Source of the DNA: Acidobacteriota bacterium
GTDB lineage: Bacteria; Acidobacteriota; Terriglobia; Bryobacterales; Bryobacteraceae
Assembly: GCA_026394075.1 (NCBI GenBank)
Contig: JAPKYX010000237.1
Span: forward strand, 1 to 64,000
Direction: 5' to 3'
DNA length: 64,000 nucleotides
The stretch's first letter is position 1. The number at the start of each line of letters is the position of its first letter. Of the stretch, positions 9,110 to 60,834 are shown piece by piece. The translations under genes and the position numbers were made by a program. The notes beneath the pieces were generated by a model. The model had not been told where the DNA came from, ran no database searches, and was given only the letters and a program-made list of their open reading frames with translations.

Positions 9110-9617
9110 ACTGCGCATCCCGGTGGCGATCGGTGGCTCGGTTGCCTCCTCTGCTCGCGGCATGCCGCGGTTCACGGCGGATATTGACTTAGTGGCCTCA
9201 ATGGCGGGCTCGCGAGCAGAGGCATTTGTCACGCAACTCGGCCCGGATTGGTACGCCGATGCCGAGACGATCCAGGACGCAATCCGTCGCGGACGTTCGT
9301 TCAATGTGATCTACATTCCGCAAAGCTACAAGTTCGACATCTTCCCCGCCGCCACTGAGTTCCATCACACGCAATTGGAGAGGGCCACGCTCGTGCCGCT
9401 GACGCTAGAAGGCAGCACCGTCTCCTGCCCGGTCACGTCAGCCGAAGACATTCTGCTAGCCAAGCTTTCTTGGCTTCAGCAAGGCGGTGGATCCGAGAGG
9501 CAGCGTCACGACATCGAGGGCATCATCAATGCCAACCGTGGGCTTGATCGCGTATATCTGGAAAGCTGGGCGCGGCGGCTGGGTATCGCTGAGCTACTGA
9601 AGACCTTTCTTCAGTAG
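9063..9617 (+). CDS. Nucleotidyltransferase-fold protein (AbiEii/DUF6036-like)
   Basis: A 184-residue protein starting at GTG. It carries the nucleotidyltransferase signature GGSVASSARGMPRFTADIDL, i.e. a GG(S) loop followed by an R-x-T-x-DID metal-binding motif, then a further acidic strand (YKFDIFPA) and the late motif VTSAEDILLAKLSWLQ. These features resemble stand-alone nucleotidyltransferases related to AbiEii-type toxins, which modify RNA or protein with NMPs. It is paired with the small overlapping gene at 8918. The target is unknown. Its 3' end overlaps the convergent ggt gene by 7 bases. Confidence 0.78.
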   Translation: MTVATGLKLLLEAFAELRIPVAIGGSVASSARGMPRFTADIDLVASMAGSRAEAFVTQLGPDWYADAETIQDAIRRGRSFNVIYIPQSYKFDIFPAATEFHHTQLERATLVPLTLEGSTVSCPVTSAEDILLAKLSWLQQGGGSERQRHDIEGIINANRGLDRVYLESWARRLGIAELLKTFLQ

Positions 9618-11281
9618 CCCTTCACCATCCCGCCCCGCCGCCCATCAGACCAGCCTTGCTTCCAGCCGTCTTTTTCTTCCAGCAGCACCGCATTCACATC
9701 GCCCTGCGACCGCAGCGCGGGGTTTAGTTTGTGGCCCATTGCGCGGAGCTTTTCCGCCACATCGAACACCAGCGCCGCAGGCTCAGAGTCAATGCCCGTC
9801 GCCCCGCCGGCGAAGTGGATGCGGGGGAACTCCACCGCGTCGCGCAACGACATCTTGAAGTCCACCAGGTTCATCACGATCTGCATCAGTGTGGAAGGGA
9901 TGGTGAGCGCGCCCGGAGTCCCAAAGGCCACCCAAGGCGAACCATCCGGCCGCAGCAGCATGGTGGGCGTCATGGTGGAACCCGCGCGCTGATTGCCCGC
10001 AGCTTTCGGCCCGGTGAAGAACGTCATGTGGTTGTTCATCAGGACGCCCGTGCCTTTGATCACCACCTGTGAGCCGAAAAAGCCGCTCAGCGTATAGGTA
10101 TTGGTGACGACATTGCCAAAGGGGTCCGCGACGGTAAAGTGCGTGGTGTCGGGCGATTCCTGCAGGCCCGACGGAGCAGTACTCAGGCGGGGCAAGGGAG
10201 ACGCTTTGTCCAGCTTGATGCTGGACGCCAGATCGACAGCGAACTGACGGCTGACCATCTTCTCAAACGTCAGGTCACCAGCTTGAAGCCCCTGGCGAGC
10301 CGCGAAGCCGCGCCGCATGGCTTCCGCCTGCAAGTGCCGCACGGCGGAACTGCCTTCCATGCCCAGTTTCACGTCGAACTGGTCCAGCACATTCAACATC
10401 ACCGCCAGCGCGGGGCCACCGGTGGAACTGGGCGGTGTCACCAGTACGGGGGACCCGTGATAGTTCAGCTTGATCGGCTCCACTTCCTTGGCCTGATAGT
10501 TCTTCAGATCTTCCGCCGCCAGCAGACCGCCATTGGCCGCCACATCAGCCGCGATCAGACGGCCCGTCTCGCCCGTGTAGAACTCCTGCCAGCCCTTCTT
10601 CTGCATGCGCCCCAGCGTTTCGCCCAGTTCGCGCTGGATGACCAGTTCACCCTGCTTGATCGGTTGATCCGTGCCATGCAGAAAGATCTTGGCGGAGTCC
10701 GGATACTTCTTCATCACCGGCACTTCCAGCTTCAAGATCAGCTCCAGCCGCTGCGAAGCGATGTGCCCGTCCTTGGCCAGCTTGCGGGCCGGTTCCAGCA
10801 CCTCCGCCCACTTCAGCTTGCCTAACTTGGAGTGCGCTAGACCCATGCCGGCGGGCGTGCCCGGCACCGTAATCGACCGGTGCCCCACCGTCGCCTCCTG
10901 CGCGGTCTTGAAGATGCCCGGCTTCACCGCACCGGGCGAATTGGTGCCGTAATTCACCACCAGCGTCCGCCCATCGGCCATGCGGACCATCATGTAGCCG
11001 CTGCCGCCCATGTTGCCCGCTTCCGGATGCACGACGGCCAGCACAAACGCGATCGCCACCGCCGCATCCACGGCATTGCCGCCCTTCTTCATGATCTGAA
11101 TGGCCGCTTCGGTAGCCAGCGGGTTCACCGAGGCCACCATCGCCTTAGGCGACCGCTCCGGCTGCGACACCATGGGCCGGGCCGCCTGCAACTTCAAGCC
11201 ACTGGAAGCTTGCTCCTGCGCCAGCAGCGAGAAAGTGTACAGTCCAATCGCGACAACGCCCACATGGCGGAATCTGGTCAT
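9611..11281 (-). CDS. ggt: Gamma-glutamyltransferase, exported
   Basis: A 556-residue Ntn-hydrolase. The autoproteolysis and nucleophile motif PDTTHFTVADPFGNVV places the catalytic Thr near residue 379 from the chosen start. The N-terminal MVASVNPLATEAAIQIMKKG and GGNAVDAAVAIAFVLAVVHP are family landmarks, as is PSSTGGPAL. The ATG at 11281 is preferred over the frame start at 11305 because it begins a signal peptide (MTRFRHVGVVAIGLYTFSLL). The enzyme would hydrolyse or transfer the gamma-glutamyl group of glutathione or similar peptides in the periplasm. No obvious operon partner. Confidence 0.93.
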   Translation of the reverse strand: MTRFRHVGVVAIGLYTFSLLAQEQASSGLKLQAARPMVSQPERSPKAMVASVNPLATEAAIQIMKKGGNAVDAAVAIAFVLAVVHPEAGNMGGSGYMMVRMADGRTLVVNYGTNSPGAVKPGIFKTAQEATVGHRSITVPGTPAGMGLAHSKLGKLKWAEVLEPARKLAKDGHIASQRLELILKLEVPVMKKYPDSAKIFLHGTDQPIKQGELVIQRELGETLGRMQKKGWQEFYTGETGRLIAADVAANGGLLAAEDLKNYQAKEVEPIKLNYHGSPVLVTPPSSTGGPALAVMLNVLDQFDVKLGMEGSSAVRHLQAEAMRRGFAARQGLQAGDLTFEKMVSRQFAVDLASSIKLDKASPLPRLSTAPSGLQESPDTTHFTVADPFGNVVTNTYTLSGFFGSQVVIKGTGVLMNNHMTFFTGPKAAGNQRAGSTMTPTMLLRPDGSPWVAFGTPGALTIPSTLMQIVMNLVDFKMSLRDAVEFPRIHFAGGATGIDSEPAALVFDVAEKLRAMGHKLNPALRSQGDVNAVLLEEKDGWKQGWSDGRRGGMVKGY

Positions 11282-41590: not shown

Positions 41591-42871
41591 ATGAGTTCTC
41601 GCCGTACATTCTTTTTCGGAGCCGCTGCCGCCGTCGCGGCCCGGCCGGTGGCCCGGGCGGCCAATGACAAACTGCGCATTGCGGTCCTGGGCGTCAACGG
41701 ACGCGGCAAGGATCACATTGCCGGTTTTATGCCGCAACCGGACGCCGAAGTGGTGATGTTGTGCGACCCGGACCGCAGCCTGCTAGACAAGCGCTCCACT
41801 GAGTTTGAAGCCAAGTACGGCAAGAAGGTGCAGACCGAGCAGGATCTGCGCAAGGTGTTCGACAACAAGTCGATCGACGCCGTCTCCATCGCCATGCCCA
41901 ACCACTGGCATGCGCTGGCCGCCATCTGGGCGTGCCAGGCCGGTAAGGACGTCTACGTTGAAAAGCCGGGCGCGCATTCGATTTGGGAAGGCCGCAAGCT
42001 GGTGGAGGCCGCGCACAAGTACAACCGCATCGTGCAACATGGCGTTCAGTTGCGCTCCTCCACCGCGATCCAGGAAGCGGTCAGCCTGTTGCGCAAGGGC
42101 GTGATTGGCGATGTCTATATGTCGCGCGGTCTCGTGTTCCGCTGGCGCCCGTCGATCGGCAAGAAGGCCCCGGAAGCCGCGCCCGACTACTTGAACTACG
42201 ACCTGTGGACCGGCCCCGCTGAGATGGAGCCGTTCACGCGCCGCATCGTGCACTATAACTGGCACTGGACCTGGAAGTACGGCAACGGCGACGTGGGCAA
42301 CCAGGGCATTCACGAGACCGATCTCTGCATGTGGGGCCTGGGCGTGGACACGCTGCCCACCAAGGTCACCTCCATGGGCGGCAAGTTCACCTTTGACGAC
42401 GACAAGGAAACGCCCGAAGTGCAGACCGCGCTCTACATGTATCCGGGCCCGGTGGGCAAGCAGAAGATGATCCAGTTCGAGGTCCGCCACTGGAACACGA
42501 ATCTGGAAGACGGCGCGGGCGTCGGCAACCTGTTCTACGGCAAAGATGGCTACATGGTGATCAAGGGCTACGACACCTTTGAAACCTACCTGGGCCCCAA
42601 GCGCGAAAAAGGCCCGTCCGGCAAGGCTGGTGGTGACCACTACGCCAACTTCATCAAGGCCGTCCGCAGCCGCAAGACCTCCGATCAGAACGGCCCCGTT
42701 GAAACCGCCCACAACGCCAGCGCCCTGGCCCACATGGGTGCCATCAGCATGCGCGTCGGCCGCCAGCTGGACTTCGACCCGGTGAAGGAACAGTTCATCG
42801 GCGATGCGGAAGCCAACAAGCTGCTGAAGCGGAAGTACCGCGCTCCGTTTGTCGTGCCGGAGAAGGTGTAA
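41591..42871 (+). CDS. Gfo/Idh/MocA family oxidoreductase, Tat-exported
   Basis: The ATG at 41591 starts a Tat signal (SSRRTFFFGAAAAVAARP); 426 residues. The Rossmann motif is IAVLGVNGRGKDHIAGF and the catalytic segment is VYVEKPGAHSIWEGRKLVEA with the family E-K-P. The C-terminal region (NWHWTWKYGNGDVGNQGIHE, ETDLCMWGLG) fits the large group of secreted acidobacterial and planctomycete members that act on sugars with tightly bound NAD(P). Substrate unknown. The promoter must lie within the 100-base gap to the divergent TPR gene. Confidence 0.92.
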   Translation: MSSRRTFFFGAAAAVAARPVARAANDKLRIAVLGVNGRGKDHIAGFMPQPDAEVVMLCDPDRSLLDKRSTEFEAKYGKKVQTEQDLRKVFDNKSIDAVSIAMPNHWHALAAIWACQAGKDVYVEKPGAHSIWEGRKLVEAAHKYNRIVQHGVQLRSSTAIQEAVSLLRKGVIGDVYMSRGLVFRWRPSIGKKAPEAAPDYLNYDLWTGPAEMEPFTRRIVHYNWHWTWKYGNGDVGNQGIHETDLCMWGLGVDTLPTKVTSMGGKFTFDDDKETPEVQTALYMYPGPVGKQKMIQFEVRHWNTNLEDGAGVGNLFYGKDGYMVIKGYDTFETYLGPKREKGPSGKAGGDHYANFIKAVRSRKTSDQNGPVETAHNASALAHMGAISMRVGRQLDFDPVKEQFIGDAEANKLLKRKYRAPFVVPEKV

Positions 42872-42919
42872 CTGGCCGCGGGGTTGATCGCAAGACCGAA
42901 TAACATTGAGAGTCAATTG

Positions 42920-43510
42920 ATGTTGCAAGTCTGCGCACAACCCCGCCTTTACATCCAGGATCACTTTCTCACGGTCACGGAGATCCGCTATGTGCTCCAC
43001 TTGACCTCCGATGCGGCCGCCCTGGCCGCCGGCGGGGTGACGCTCAGCGACGGTCCAGCGGGGAGGCGTGCGGAGCTTCCCGTTCCTTCCGACCCCGTCC
43101 TGAAGGCAATTTCCAAGCGTCTGGACGGGGTGACGGGATTGGTGAACCGGCGCGCGCGGTCTTTCCGCTTCCGCCACTACGGGCCTGGCAACGCCCACCC
43201 AGCCCACTTTGACAACTTCCAGGCGGGGGATTACCACTTGATCGCCACGGCCATGATGTACCTAAGTGATTGCACCCTGGGTGGTGAAACCTCGTTTCCG
43301 GACGCCGAACCCGATGCCTTGGCGCTGGAGCCCCGGGCCGGGCGGCTGGTGTTATGGTTCAACCATCTTACCGATGGCTCGCCCGACACCCATGCGTACC
43401 ATGAGGCATGGGAAGTACTACAGGGCGAGAAGATTACTTTGACAGAATTCTACTTTAGTACTCTCTCCGATTGCGCCTTGGCTCCGCCATTTGTTACAGT
43501 CATGCGATGA
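42920..43510 (+). CDS. 2-oxoglutarate/Fe(II)-dependent oxygenase (prolyl-4-hydroxylase-like)
   Basis: A 196-residue single-domain oxygenase. Fe(II) ligands follow the H-x-D...H pattern: His96 and Asp98 in NAHPAHFDNF, and His161 in HEAWEVLQGEK, where Lys171 would bind the 2-oxoglutarate carboxylate. MMYLSDCTLGGETSFPDAEP is the usual P4H middle strand. The stop overlaps the start of the next gene (ATGA at 43507-43510), so the two are translationally coupled. This suggests the downstream repeat protein is its substrate or partner. The ATG at 42920 is preferred to a TTG at 42884. Confidence 0.86.
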   Translation: MLQVCAQPRLYIQDHFLTVTEIRYVLHLTSDAAALAAGGVTLSDGPAGRRAELPVPSDPVLKAISKRLDGVTGLVNRRARSFRFRHYGPGNAHPAHFDNFQAGDYHLIATAMMYLSDCTLGGETSFPDAEPDALALEPRAGRLVLWFNHLTDGSPDTHAYHEAWEVLQGEKITLTEFYFSTLSDCALAPPFVTVMR

Positions 43511-44160
43511 ATCCAAGGGTCATTCGCCGCGCCGCCTCTCCTCTCAACGCTATCGAGCAATCAGTTCATGATCGGTGCGACGGATTGACGCCGGTGACAG
43601 AGATCTCCCGCCAGACGGGTCTTTCTTCCAAGCGCGTGTTTGCCGTTCTCGACCGGCTGGCCGACCTCGGCTTGCTTGAGGTGCGGCCCGCTCCCCCGAC
43701 CGCAGCCAGCTTTGAGTCACGGCGCGGCCTGGTGGGACGTATTGCCGCAGCGGCGGGCTTGATCGTGACGGCTCCGGCGGTGATGCGCTCCGAAGTGGCG
43801 CAGGAAGTCGGATCGAAATTCAGCAACGAGGAGAGCTTAAGCAAGCTCTCTCAGACGGCAGAGGCTGAAGCCAAGGCGCAGAATCAAGCGTCTTCGGGGG
43901 ATCCCGACGCCGATCTCCGTCGTCAAGAAGAAGAAGAGAAGTTTCGCCAGCAAGAGGAAGGCCAAAAGATTCGCCAGCAAGAGCAGGCCGACAAAATTCG
44001 CCGGCAAGAACAAGCCGACAAAGCGAGTGGAGTGAGCCCCGTGCCTGAGCCGGCCACCGTCGCTATGGCCGCTGGCGCTTTGGCTGCCCTGGGGATCAAA
44101 GCCTACAAACGCACGACTGAACAGAAGGCCACTGAGGGTCCGGCCGAGCCTAAGCAGTAA
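43507..44160 (+). CDS. Winged-helix protein with four 9-residue repeats and PEP-CTERM-like end
   Basis: A 217-residue protein of novel layout. Residues 13-60 form a winged helix or PqqD-like domain (DGLTPVTEISRQTGLSSKRV, then FAVLDRLADLGLLEV). Residues about 76-95 are hydrophobic (LVGRIAAAAGLIVTAPAVM). Residues 138-173 are four tandem 9-residue units, R-[RQ]-Q-E-[EQ]-x-x-K-[FIA]. Residues 178-202 read PVPEPATVAMAAGALAALGI-KAYKR, a PEP-CTERM-like signal, but 15 more residues follow. The start overlaps the hydroxylase stop; the 3' end overlaps the convergent ATP-grasp gene by 11 bases. A peptide or protein substrate of those two enzymes is a reasonable guess. Confidence 0.8.
   Translation: MNPRVIRRAASPLNAIEQSVHDRCDGLTPVTEISRQTGLSSKRVFAVLDRLADLGLLEVRPAPPTAASFESRRGLVGRIAAAAGLIVTAPAVMRSEVAQEVGSKFSNEESLSKLSQTAEAEAKAQNQASSGDPDADLRRQEEEEKFRQQEEGQKIRQQEQADKIRRQEQADKASGVSPVPEPATVAMAAGALAALGIKAYKRTTEQKATEGPAEPKQ
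43918..44025 (+). repeat. Four tandem 27-bp coding repeats
   Basis: Units start at 43918, 43945, 43972 and 43999. Each encodes Arg-[Arg/Gln]-Gln-Glu-[Glu/Gln]-x-x-Lys-[Phe/Ile/Ala]. Units 3 and 4 are nearly identical (RQQEQADKI, RRQEQADKA). The repeats are exactly in frame with the gene. Confidence 0.9.
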
Positions 44161-44995
44161 GTCGGCGCGCCTTTTCCTGAAGGTGTTCCACCATCGCCCC
44201 GGCGATGTCTATTCCAGCCACCAGTTGGGCGTGCGCAAAGTAGCAAGGAAAGTTGCTTTCCAGCACATAGCCGCGCCCGCTGGGATGCATGAGAACGTCC
44301 ACGCCACCGAATTCCAGTCTTTCCGCCGCCACTGCTTGGCAGGCCAGCCGTACTGCTTCGGGCGGCGCCTCGACAAACGCCTCGGGCCGATCCTCGGCGT
44401 AGGTCCGGAAGTCGTCGGTATCGGTCGTGTTGCGGTACGCCGCCACCGCCCGTTCCCCCACCACCACCACGCGCCAGTGTTCGGCGTCCGCAATGAAACT
44501 CATCAGCATCGGCTGATGCCCATTGGCCAACGCGTAGTCAACAAATGAGAACAACCCGGCCATGGAATCCAGGCGTACCACGCCCACGCCGCGCGACCAG
44601 CCGCCCACCTTGGCCACCACCGGGAACCCGCCCAACTGCTCCACCCAATGCCGGATGAAGTCCCGCCCGGCGTGATGCAGGTAGACAAAGCGCGGTACGT
44701 CGATCCCCTGCCGGGCGAACAGCATTTGGGAGCCCGTTGGGGGGAAGAAGCAGCCCATGCTGTCGCGGTAAAAGGTGGCTGTGTCCGGAGCGGTCACAAA
44801 CTGTTCAACACGCATGGCCGCCCCGGAAACCGCTGGCCGGAACAACATGTCGCCCGGTTCGCAAATGCGGGCCGGGTCAAAATCGAACGCCAGTGCGTCC
44901 AGCTCCAAGTACTCTACGCCACGCTTCCGGCAGGCCGTGGAAAGCAGACCCGGAGTCTCAGGCGGCACGCGGTCGTTGATACAAACAAGTCGCAC
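44150..44995 (-). CDS. RimK-like ATP-grasp ligase
   Basis: The GTG at 44995 gives 281 residues and starts at VRLVCINDRVPPETP; frame sequence upstream of it is not protein-like. RimK-type ATP-grasp blocks are present: FPVVAKVGGWSRGVGVVRLD (nucleotide-binding Lys and glycine loop), AEHWRVVVVGERAVAAYRN, and FGGVDVLMHPSGRGYVLESN with the metal-binding Glu and Asn. Such enzymes join a carboxylate to an amine or hydroxyl, including cross-links in graspetide RiPPs and glutamate tails on proteins. Convergent and overlapping by 11 bases with the repeat protein, which suggests a functional unit. Confidence 0.87.
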   Translation of the reverse strand: MRLVCINDRVPPETPGLLSTACRKRGVEYLELDALAFDFDPARICEPGDMLFRPAVSGAAMRVEQFVTAPDTATFYRDSMGCFFPPTGSQMLFARQGIDVPRFVYLHHAGRDFIRHWVEQLGGFPVVAKVGGWSRGVGVVRLDSMAGLFSFVDYALANGHQPMLMSFIADAEHWRVVVVGERAVAAYRNTTDTDDFRTYAEDRPEAFVEAPPEAVRLACQAVAAERLEFGGVDVLMHPSGRGYVLESNFPCYFAHAQLVAGIDIAGAMVEHLQEKARRLTA

Positions 44996-45093
44996 GGAAT
45001 CAGTTTCCCAGATCGGCACAAGATGGGCGAGTCTTGATTTCTTTTGGAGTGGACTGCTGTCCGTCACCACCCGCGGCCCGCGTAAAACGCCCA

Positions 45094-45287
45094 CTCTGAG
45101 CCGCGACCAGCAGGAGCGGGCTGCCTCTGGTCCAAACCGGAGACATGGGTAACACTTTGATCCGGAGACATGGGTAACAGTCAACGAGGAGAAAGGCACC
45201 CTGGCTTTTCTGGCCAGTGATACGGTGGGCGAACTCGTCTCCGGTTTGGAACCAGGCCAGCCCGCTCCTGCTGGTCGCGGCTCAGAG
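45094..45287. repeat. 51-bp imperfect inverted repeat enclosing an IS-like fragment
   Basis: Arms at 45094-45144 and 45237-45287 match over almost their full length; the first 30 bases are identical. Inside lie two direct copies of an 18-base word (45137-45154 and 45162-45179, reading CCGGAGACATGGGTAACA), a motif typical of ends of IS481-like elements. No transposase remains. The 350-base intergenic stretch 44996-45345 holds this element and the promoter of the SDR gene; nothing else was recognised. Confidence 0.75.
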
Positions 45288-45345
45288 TAAGCATTCTCGC
45301 TCGGCTTCGACCTGTGCGGTACCCCCAACGGCATACAATGCTTCC

Positions 45346-47624: not shown

Positions 47625-47663
47625 AATTCTTGGCAGCGGGCTGCTGCGGGGAGTTCCTCGAGA

Positions 47664-47685
47664 CCGCTCCTGCTCGTCGCGGCTC
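47664..47685 (+). repeat. Third copy of a dispersed GC-rich repeat word
   Basis: CCGCTCCTGCTCGTCGCGGC and two following bases match 45262-45283 with one mismatch, and match the inverted arm starting at 45094 in reverse complement. It lies in the 134-base gap between two convergent genes, as expected for REP-like extragenic elements. Confidence 0.55.
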
Positions 47686-60102: not shown

Positions 60103-60834
60103 ATGCCGAAAACTCGATTGGGAATCCTGGCCGCTCTGCTGGCCAGCACTCTGACGCTGCCCGCCACCGCTGGCCACCTTACCTGGGACATGAGCGCCGT
60201 CGGGCTACCCGGTTCATCCTCATTTTCCGCCGACGCCCTGAAAGCGACCGAAGTGTCGCACATCATGTTCACGGGCCCCACCACCTGGATTGAGCACGGT
60301 TTCGCCAAGATCACCGGAGTTCTGAACGGCGGCGTGCAGTCCGTGCCAACCGGCCTGAACTCAGACTACTCGCTCTACTTTGACTTCACGGCCACCGGTG
60401 ACCTGATGACCGGGACGATCGACACCCTGGCGATGACCCTTTATGGCGTGGCCGGTGTGGCCAACTTCGGCCTGGATGCCAGCAACAATGCGTTCGTCGA
60501 CAATGGCGCGAACCTGCCGCTCGCACTGGCCACGATCACTTTCCTGAAGGGCACCATCGGCGGAGCACCCGGCACCGATTTGTCGGCCAATATCTGGGGC
60601 ACTTTCGCGGCCACTAAAGGCGGCGCGCCCGCCTTCTTGAGCCCGTCACTGCCCGCGCCCTTTTACGGAAAGTTCTTCCATCCGGTCAGCGAACCGGGAG
60701 GAATTACGCTAGTGGCCGATGGCATCGTGCTCAATGGCGGTGATGACACACTGCAGTTTGTACCGGAGCCCTCGTCGCTGGCCTTGCTCGCCAGTGGCTT
60801 GACCGGGGCGCTTTGGCTGCGTCGCCGCCGCTAG
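60103..60834 (+). CDS. PEP-CTERM sorting-domain protein (possibly PepA-like)
   Basis: A 243-residue exported protein with signal peptide MPKTRLGILAALLASTLTLP. The end VPEPSSLALLASGLTGALWL-RRRR is a textbook PEP-CTERM signal for exosortase processing. The middle (LNSDYSLYFDFTATGDLMTG; PAPFYGKFFHP) resembles the flocculation-associated PepA group, a tentative comparison. Such proteins are anchored or released with exopolysaccharide. An exosortase gene is not in the window. Confidence 0.85.
   Translation: MPKTRLGILAALLASTLTLPATAGHLTWDMSAVGLPGSSSFSADALKATEVSHIMFTGPTTWIEHGFAKITGVLNGGVQSVPTGLNSDYSLYFDFTATGDLMTGTIDTLAMTLYGVAGVANFGLDASNNAFVDNGANLPLALATITFLKGTIGGAPGTDLSANIWGTFAATKGGAPAFLSPSLPAPFYGKFFHPVSEPGGITLVADGIVLNGGDDTLQFVPEPSSLALLASGLTGALWLRRRR

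Follow-up and report, generated by a model that had tools for sequence, protein, structure and literature searches.

In a 64,000-nucleotide stretch of an Acidobacteriota genome of the family Bryobacteraceae (contig JAPKYX010000237.1; here called the window) we found a block of three genes, in which the gene for a PEP-CTERM protein (P0002) lies tail to tail with the gene for a RimK-like ATP-grasp ligase and directly behind the gene for a 2OG-Fe(II) oxygenase. The block occupies an insertion site, the pairing of the PEP-CTERM and ligase genes is repeated elsewhere in the same genome and the charged PEP-CTERM protein is under constraint. The reading that we tentatively favour, at somewhat short of an even chance, is a mobile protein-tailoring cassette with the PEP-CTERM protein as core substrate, the ligase as its dedicated enzyme and the oxygenase as an optional local addition.

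Organisation of the locus and of its insertion site

The oxygenase gene (42920..43510, + strand, 196 aa) encodes an enzyme of the prolyl-4-hydroxylase type and its stop shares the ATGA at 43507-43510 with the start of the P0002 gene (43507..44160, + strand, 217 aa). The ligase gene (44150..44995, - strand, 281 aa, GTG start) is convergent with the P0002 gene, with an 11-bp tail-to-tail overlap at 44150-44160. The original prediction of an oxygenase, a repeat protein and an ATP-grasp enzyme arranged in this way, overlaps included, agrees with the open reading frames found.

The three genes are carried by an inserted segment (42871..45345) placed between a Gfo/Idh-type gene on the left and an SDR gene on the right. 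These flanks align with those of two genomes of the same genus, G070 and G110, at ~86-94% identity, while the segment itself is unaligned. The equivalent site of G070 is empty, with ~88 bp between the flanks, and that of G110 holds a different insert of 3.3 kb (L044:2264-5187) encoding a short Argonaute (pAgo) and a TIR-APAZ protein, which is SPARTA-like (PADLOC E 4.4e-193 and 2.2e-121). Since the flanks align and the three-gene segment is absent from both genomes, the alignments indicate that the cassette was gained here, or lost elsewhere, in one piece. The right edge of the insert contains a 59-nt imperfect inverted repeat (45086..45295; arms 45086-45144 and 45237-45295), a possible remnant of a mobile element, whose arms enclose two copies of GGAGACATGGGTAACA and of which a third arm copy is found at 47660-47684. 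Base composition gave no signal of foreign origin (GC 0.615 for the insert, 0.618 for the window).

The presence of the Argonaute insert at the same site in G110 would suit a cassette with a role in conflict or defence, placed in a slot for such systems. We consider this very unlikely, as just this one slot is shared, PADLOC run on the cassette gave no more than a generic 2OG match and a weak Csa3 match, and the second pair of genes described below has a different location, with an Oar-type receptor gene and an amidohydrolase gene as neighbours.

The repeated gene pair and its distribution

The same genome contains one paralogue of the ligase, on contig C126, which is 57-58% identical to that of the window. 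A Lys/Glu-rich PEP-CTERM protein is again encoded tail to tail with it, 8 bp from the 3' end of the ligase gene. This protein opens at the contig end with RRQMLRRL, and its N-terminus was assigned to the end of contig C74 (MKPTGAPCSDVRNLGPDLSQLWTLCDGTRTVAELAGATGWSREVVWQRL), behind the Oar-type receptor gene, a join that was inferred from the intact homologue in G070 and not from reads. A 150-nt overlap search returned no contig overlapping the C126 end, and the end of contig C54, considered as the missing N-terminus, proved unrelated, the C74 end being the one that fits. Both of these PEP-CTERM proteins of the genome belong to one family with a winged helix, an SRR motif, a charged region and a PEP-CTERM end. 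The contig of the second pair also encodes two tandem paralogous PEP-CTERM proteins (L020:8467-9225 and 9358-10188).

No oxygenase was found upstream of the second pair (C74/C126). Because the pair is present there without it, the PEP-CTERM protein and the ATP-grasp ligase are the repeated unit and the oxygenase is an extra. That this genome has a second convergent pair supports the idea that these two genes belong together. The fixed three-gene neighbourhood, which a co-occurrence search was expected to reveal, did not appear: at E<=1e-10 the other 236 genomes of the family contain no homologue of the oxygenase, leaving one copy in 237.

The ligase is itself rare, with three copies in the 237 family genomes, two of them in the genome of the window and the third in G553, where it is placed between dusB and a methyltransferase gene and has no PEP-CTERM neighbour; the corresponding site of G124 is empty. 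At the site of the C126 pair, G070 encodes the PEP-CTERM protein, with 61% identity across the common part, but not the ligase, of which no family member was found anywhere in G070 at the thresholds used, and G110 has neither. Since G070 has a lone PEP-CTERM protein and G553 a lone ligase, the pairing is not obligate. No further member of the ligase family was found in 396 genomes of the phylum and 399 of the class, nor were relatives found in plasmids and viral contigs. A phylum match in G450 turned out to be a RimK-like ligase of a generic kind with unrelated surroundings, and three distant RimK-like loci (29-32% identity) from a scan of the genome contigs were set aside. As only three of these ligases are known, the conservation statistics are thin.

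For the charged PEP-CTERM protein, comparison of G000 with G070 gave a dN of 0.31 and a dS of 1.63, which points to purifying selection, the ratio (~0.19) being rough because dS is near saturation. The adjoining amidohydrolase gave a dN of 0.02 and a dS of 0.42. This pair of PEP-CTERM proteins seems older than its flanks, which fits an exchanged or separately acquired gene.

The lone ligase of G553 and the lone PEP-CTERM protein of G070, together with the fact that every site examined is an insertion slot, would also be expected if the genes were co-mobile and functionally separate, both travelling in variable slots. The ligase would then attach amino acids to some other protein or to a small molecule, and the PEP-CTERM product would be an ordinary surface protein. 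RimK-like enzymes do act on many substrates. We regard this as a serious alternative, if a somewhat unlikely one, since it has to explain why genes this rare are paired tail to tail at two unrelated sites of a single genome.

Architecture of the PEP-CTERM protein

P0002 begins with a winged helix (residues ~10-60), followed by S71-R-R73, a hydrophobic segment (75-93), a charged region, the 9-residue repeats and the PEP-CTERM motif (178-197), beyond which the C-terminal tail comprises 17 residues. The PF07589 score is 20.7 bits, exactly the Pfam cut-off (20.7), and its relatives fall slightly under it (20.6 and 18.2 bits). With the motif and a hydrophobic stretch both present, P0002 has the features of a PEP-CTERM protein, as had been foreseen for the end of the repeat protein. 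An N-terminal signal peptide is missing, as the first hydrophobic segment begins at residue 75, behind the winged helix. This segment and the adjacent SRR motif (43717..43785, + strand; SRRGLVGRIAAAAGLIVTAPAVM) form a candidate Tat-like internal signal or anchor. The segment is the hydropathy maximum of P0002, SRR is conserved in all four aligned relatives, and the match to TIGR01409 is weak (E 0.92). The product is predicted to be targeted to the membrane or envelope.

With PEP-CTERM/exosortase substrates, many of which are encoded in this genome, P0002 shares the motif at the cut-off. It differs from them by its N-terminal winged helix, by a hydrophobic signal that is internal rather than N-terminal and by a C-terminal tail that is longer than in most. 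The tails of P0002 and its relatives exceed those of most PEP-CTERM proteins examined. The window itself encodes an ordinary PEP-CTERM protein at 60103-60834, ending in VPEPSSLALLASGLTGALWLRRRR. Long C-terminal tails also occur outside the P0002 family, an example being the PEP-CTERM-like protein at L087:7430-8189 (RYRSSKQTSPSRSNQ).

The repeats (43915..44022, + strand) consist of four 27-nt units encoding LRRQEEEEK, FRQQEEGQK, IRQQEQADK and IRRQEQADK, rich in Glu, Gln, Lys and Arg. TRF reported a 27-nt unit in 3.0 copies, and at the protein level the identity at lag 9 was 0.56 (z 7.9), a value that none of 5000 shuffles reached. The four Glu/Lys units that had been claimed are therefore periodic beyond chance. 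They are nevertheless peculiar to P0002, being missing from both relatives (the C126 and G070 proteins), and because of this they cannot be the general target of a modification. A weak 11-residue, LEA-like periodicity in the relatives was discarded, as its best lag was matched in 245-327 of 5000 shuffles. The C-terminal tail was likewise rejected as a conserved modification site, the tails of P0002, C126 and G070 being no more similar than shuffles. With repeats and tail both unconserved among relatives, no modification site stands out. Of the envelope-anchored, modified product that had been proposed, the predicted targeting is retained, and the 9-residue unit as its conserved modified element is given up.

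The N-terminal domain and its relation to the HPr-rel-A system

The N-terminal domain of P0002 (codons 1-65; 43507..43701, + strand) was modelled by AF2 with a pLDDT of 77-91 across residues 1-60 and the G070 protein starts with a homologous domain (BLASTP 8e-7). No direct match to PF05402 (PqqD) was obtained for P0002. However, a profile built from the domain and SRR segment of two sequences (P0002 and the G070 protein) and run on the 237 family genomes matched proteins that do have a PF05402 domain (best E 4.9e-6). In these PqqD-SRR proteins SRR comes after the PqqD domain and leads into a hydrophobic stretch rich in alanine, which closes with APTPAMAQ or a similar sequence; behind it lies a short tail rich in Pro, Lys and His. 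By hhalign the P0002 domain is only slightly closer to PqqD (4.5e-7) than to IclR (1.8e-6), Foldseek placed Lrp/AsnC wHTH regulators on top with no match at E < 0.001, and weak Pfam matches to MarR_2, TrmB and IclR were seen. The PqqD-like winged helix of the original prediction is thus upheld as probable by the SRR layout and the profile link, with the reservation that the fold is a generic one, to which DNA-binding wHTH folds and PqqD correspond about equally well.

The weak MarR_2, TrmB and IclR matches, the Lrp/AsnC folds and the IclR score close to that of PqqD are what a membrane-anchored transcription regulator would give, one that would bind DNA through its winged helix, be held in the membrane by the hydrophobic segment and sense through the charged region, with the enzymes as its regulon or modulators. 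We think this quite improbable: the best profile matches that share the SRR layout are to PqqD proteins and not to regulators, and a C-terminal PEP-CTERM motif is atypical of regulators.

The PqqD-SRR genes are flanked by a gene for an HprK-related kinase (TIGR04352, under the cut-off at E 4e-14 to 2e-17) and one for a nucleotidyltransferase (PF14907, NTP_transf_5; two were tested, giving E 4.5e-61 and 2.7e-60), an arrangement that NCBIfam names the 'HPr-rel-A system' (TIGR04352/TIGR04353). Examples are L088, L090 and L092 (in G579, G101 and G069, respectively), where PqqD-SRR proteins with Pro/Lys/His-rich tails lie between the two genes. In lasso-peptide clusters the peptide C-terminus is modified by HPr kinases and nucleotidyltransferases (PMC7533575). 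The term 'HprK-related kinase' was found in none of the open-access papers searched.

P0002 and the HPr-rel-A proteins have in common a PqqD-type domain, which is probable in the case of P0002, an SRR hydrophobic segment, a tail, adjoining putative peptide-modifying enzymes and the same bacterial family. The partners differ, being an HprK-related kinase and a nucleotidyltransferase in one case and ATP-grasp and 2OG enzymes in the other, and the PqqD-SRR proteins lack the Lys/Glu-rich region and the PEP-CTERM end of P0002. No kinase or nucleotidyltransferase of this kind was observed in the neighbourhood of the window cassette, of C126/C74 or of the G070 gene, so the cassette is not a member of this system despite the alike layout of the substrates.

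The ligase and the oxygenase

The ligase carries a RimK-type ATP-grasp domain (PF08443, 48.5 bits against a cut-off of 21), matches rimK_fam (E 6.4e-18) and has RimK as its best PDB match (E 4e-15). It is nevertheless far from RimK proper, scoring 53.9 bits against a cut-off of 331 with the S6 glutamate ligase equivalog model NF007764 and 65.1 against 143.4 bits for the RimK subfamily; moreover, no match covered its N-terminal ~88 residues, and it is paired with a PEP-CTERM protein. An AF2 model of the ligase had a pLDDT of 38 and was set aside. The curated graspetide ligase model TIGR04187 gave 31.1 bits against a cut-off of 350. The RimK family scores higher and fits best, and a ligase of the graspetide type, as first suggested, is not supported.

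The oxygenase matches PF13640 (43.3 bits, cut-off 27), and human P4HA2 is its closest PDB match (E 5.9e-14). As in prolyl 4-hydroxylases, the HxD...H...K set is kept (H96, D98, H161 and K171, corresponding to the iron ligands and the distal Lys for 2-oxoglutarate). The adjoining repeats, however, contain no proline, which speaks against their prolyl hydroxylation. P0002 may still be a substrate of the oxygenase, which, if a prolyl hydroxylase, would act elsewhere than on the repeats.

Comparison with graspetides

The original prediction was of a graspetide-like product, in which the ATP-grasp enzyme cross-links the four Glu/Lys repeats and hydroxylation is added. An ATP-grasp gene does adjoin a gene with Glu/Lys-rich repeats, as in graspetides, each unit has Glu and Lys, and the 9-residue periodicity is significant. 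We now hold this to be highly improbable, given that relatives of the same layout lack the repeat, that the curated models place the ligase outside the graspetide type and that the repeats are devoid of proline. The leader motif Phhx(1,2)h is carried by about half of known graspetide precursors (PMC8939145) and was not found, by reading, in residues 1-30 of P0002. Moreover, graspetides have a short leader whereas P0002 has a folded N-terminal domain, no transporter or C39 peptidase lies next to the cassette, and the cassette proteins are predicted to be membrane-targeted and are 217-335 aa in length. On the features examined, judged from sequence, the cassette is not a graspetide locus.

Proposed mechanism

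The relation of substrate to enzyme, the docking, the chemistry and the export that we infer for the tailoring cassette would be as follows. The PqqD-like winged helix of P0002 would stay in the cytoplasm and serve in cis as the docking site for the ATP-grasp ligase, which would form amide bonds on the PEP-CTERM protein there, ahead of export. By analogy with RimK the simplest chemistry would be to add an amino acid, for example Glu, with Glu-Lys cross-links inside the protein as another candidate. The SRR hydrophobic segment would then act as export signal or anchor, leaving the Lys/Glu-rich region and the PEP-CTERM end outside the cytoplasm. In the window copy the P4H-like oxygenase, putatively coupled in translation to the substrate, would be a second, optional tailoring enzyme.

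In favour of the tailoring cassette are the two tail-to-tail pairs in one genome, the ligase being otherwise present in one of the 237 family genomes, the common family of the two PEP-CTERM proteins, the grouping of the three genes in one segment that two same-genus genomes lack at this site, the ATGA coupling of the oxygenase and substrate genes, the constraint on the charged protein, the ATP-grasp and P4H domain scores above cut-off, the conserved P4H residues, and the PqqD-SRR relatives with their HprK-related and NTP_transf_5 neighbours. Against it are the lone ligase, the lone PEP-CTERM protein, the unconserved repeats and tail and the wHTH-like fold.

A broader and more speculative proposal, which we rate as unlikely, is a class of self-docking exported substrates in which a PqqD-type domain is fused ahead of the export signal, the tailoring enzymes are exchangeable, the PEP-CTERM end gives placement in the envelope and spread occurs as mobile cassettes. 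One branch would have the HprK-related kinase and nucleotidyltransferase, the other the ATP-grasp ligase with or without the 2OG oxygenase.

In the open literature searched we found no paper combining PEP-CTERM with ATP-grasp or PqqD in a tailoring sense; the subscription literature may differ. Should the ligase indeed modify its partner, ATP-grasp tailoring would here act on a large protein that is targeted to the membrane and contains its own recognition domain, and not on a small, leader-bearing peptide. It would then also join PEP-CTERM sorting to the PqqD-SRR proteins found in HPr-rel-A loci, both areas being uncharacterised.
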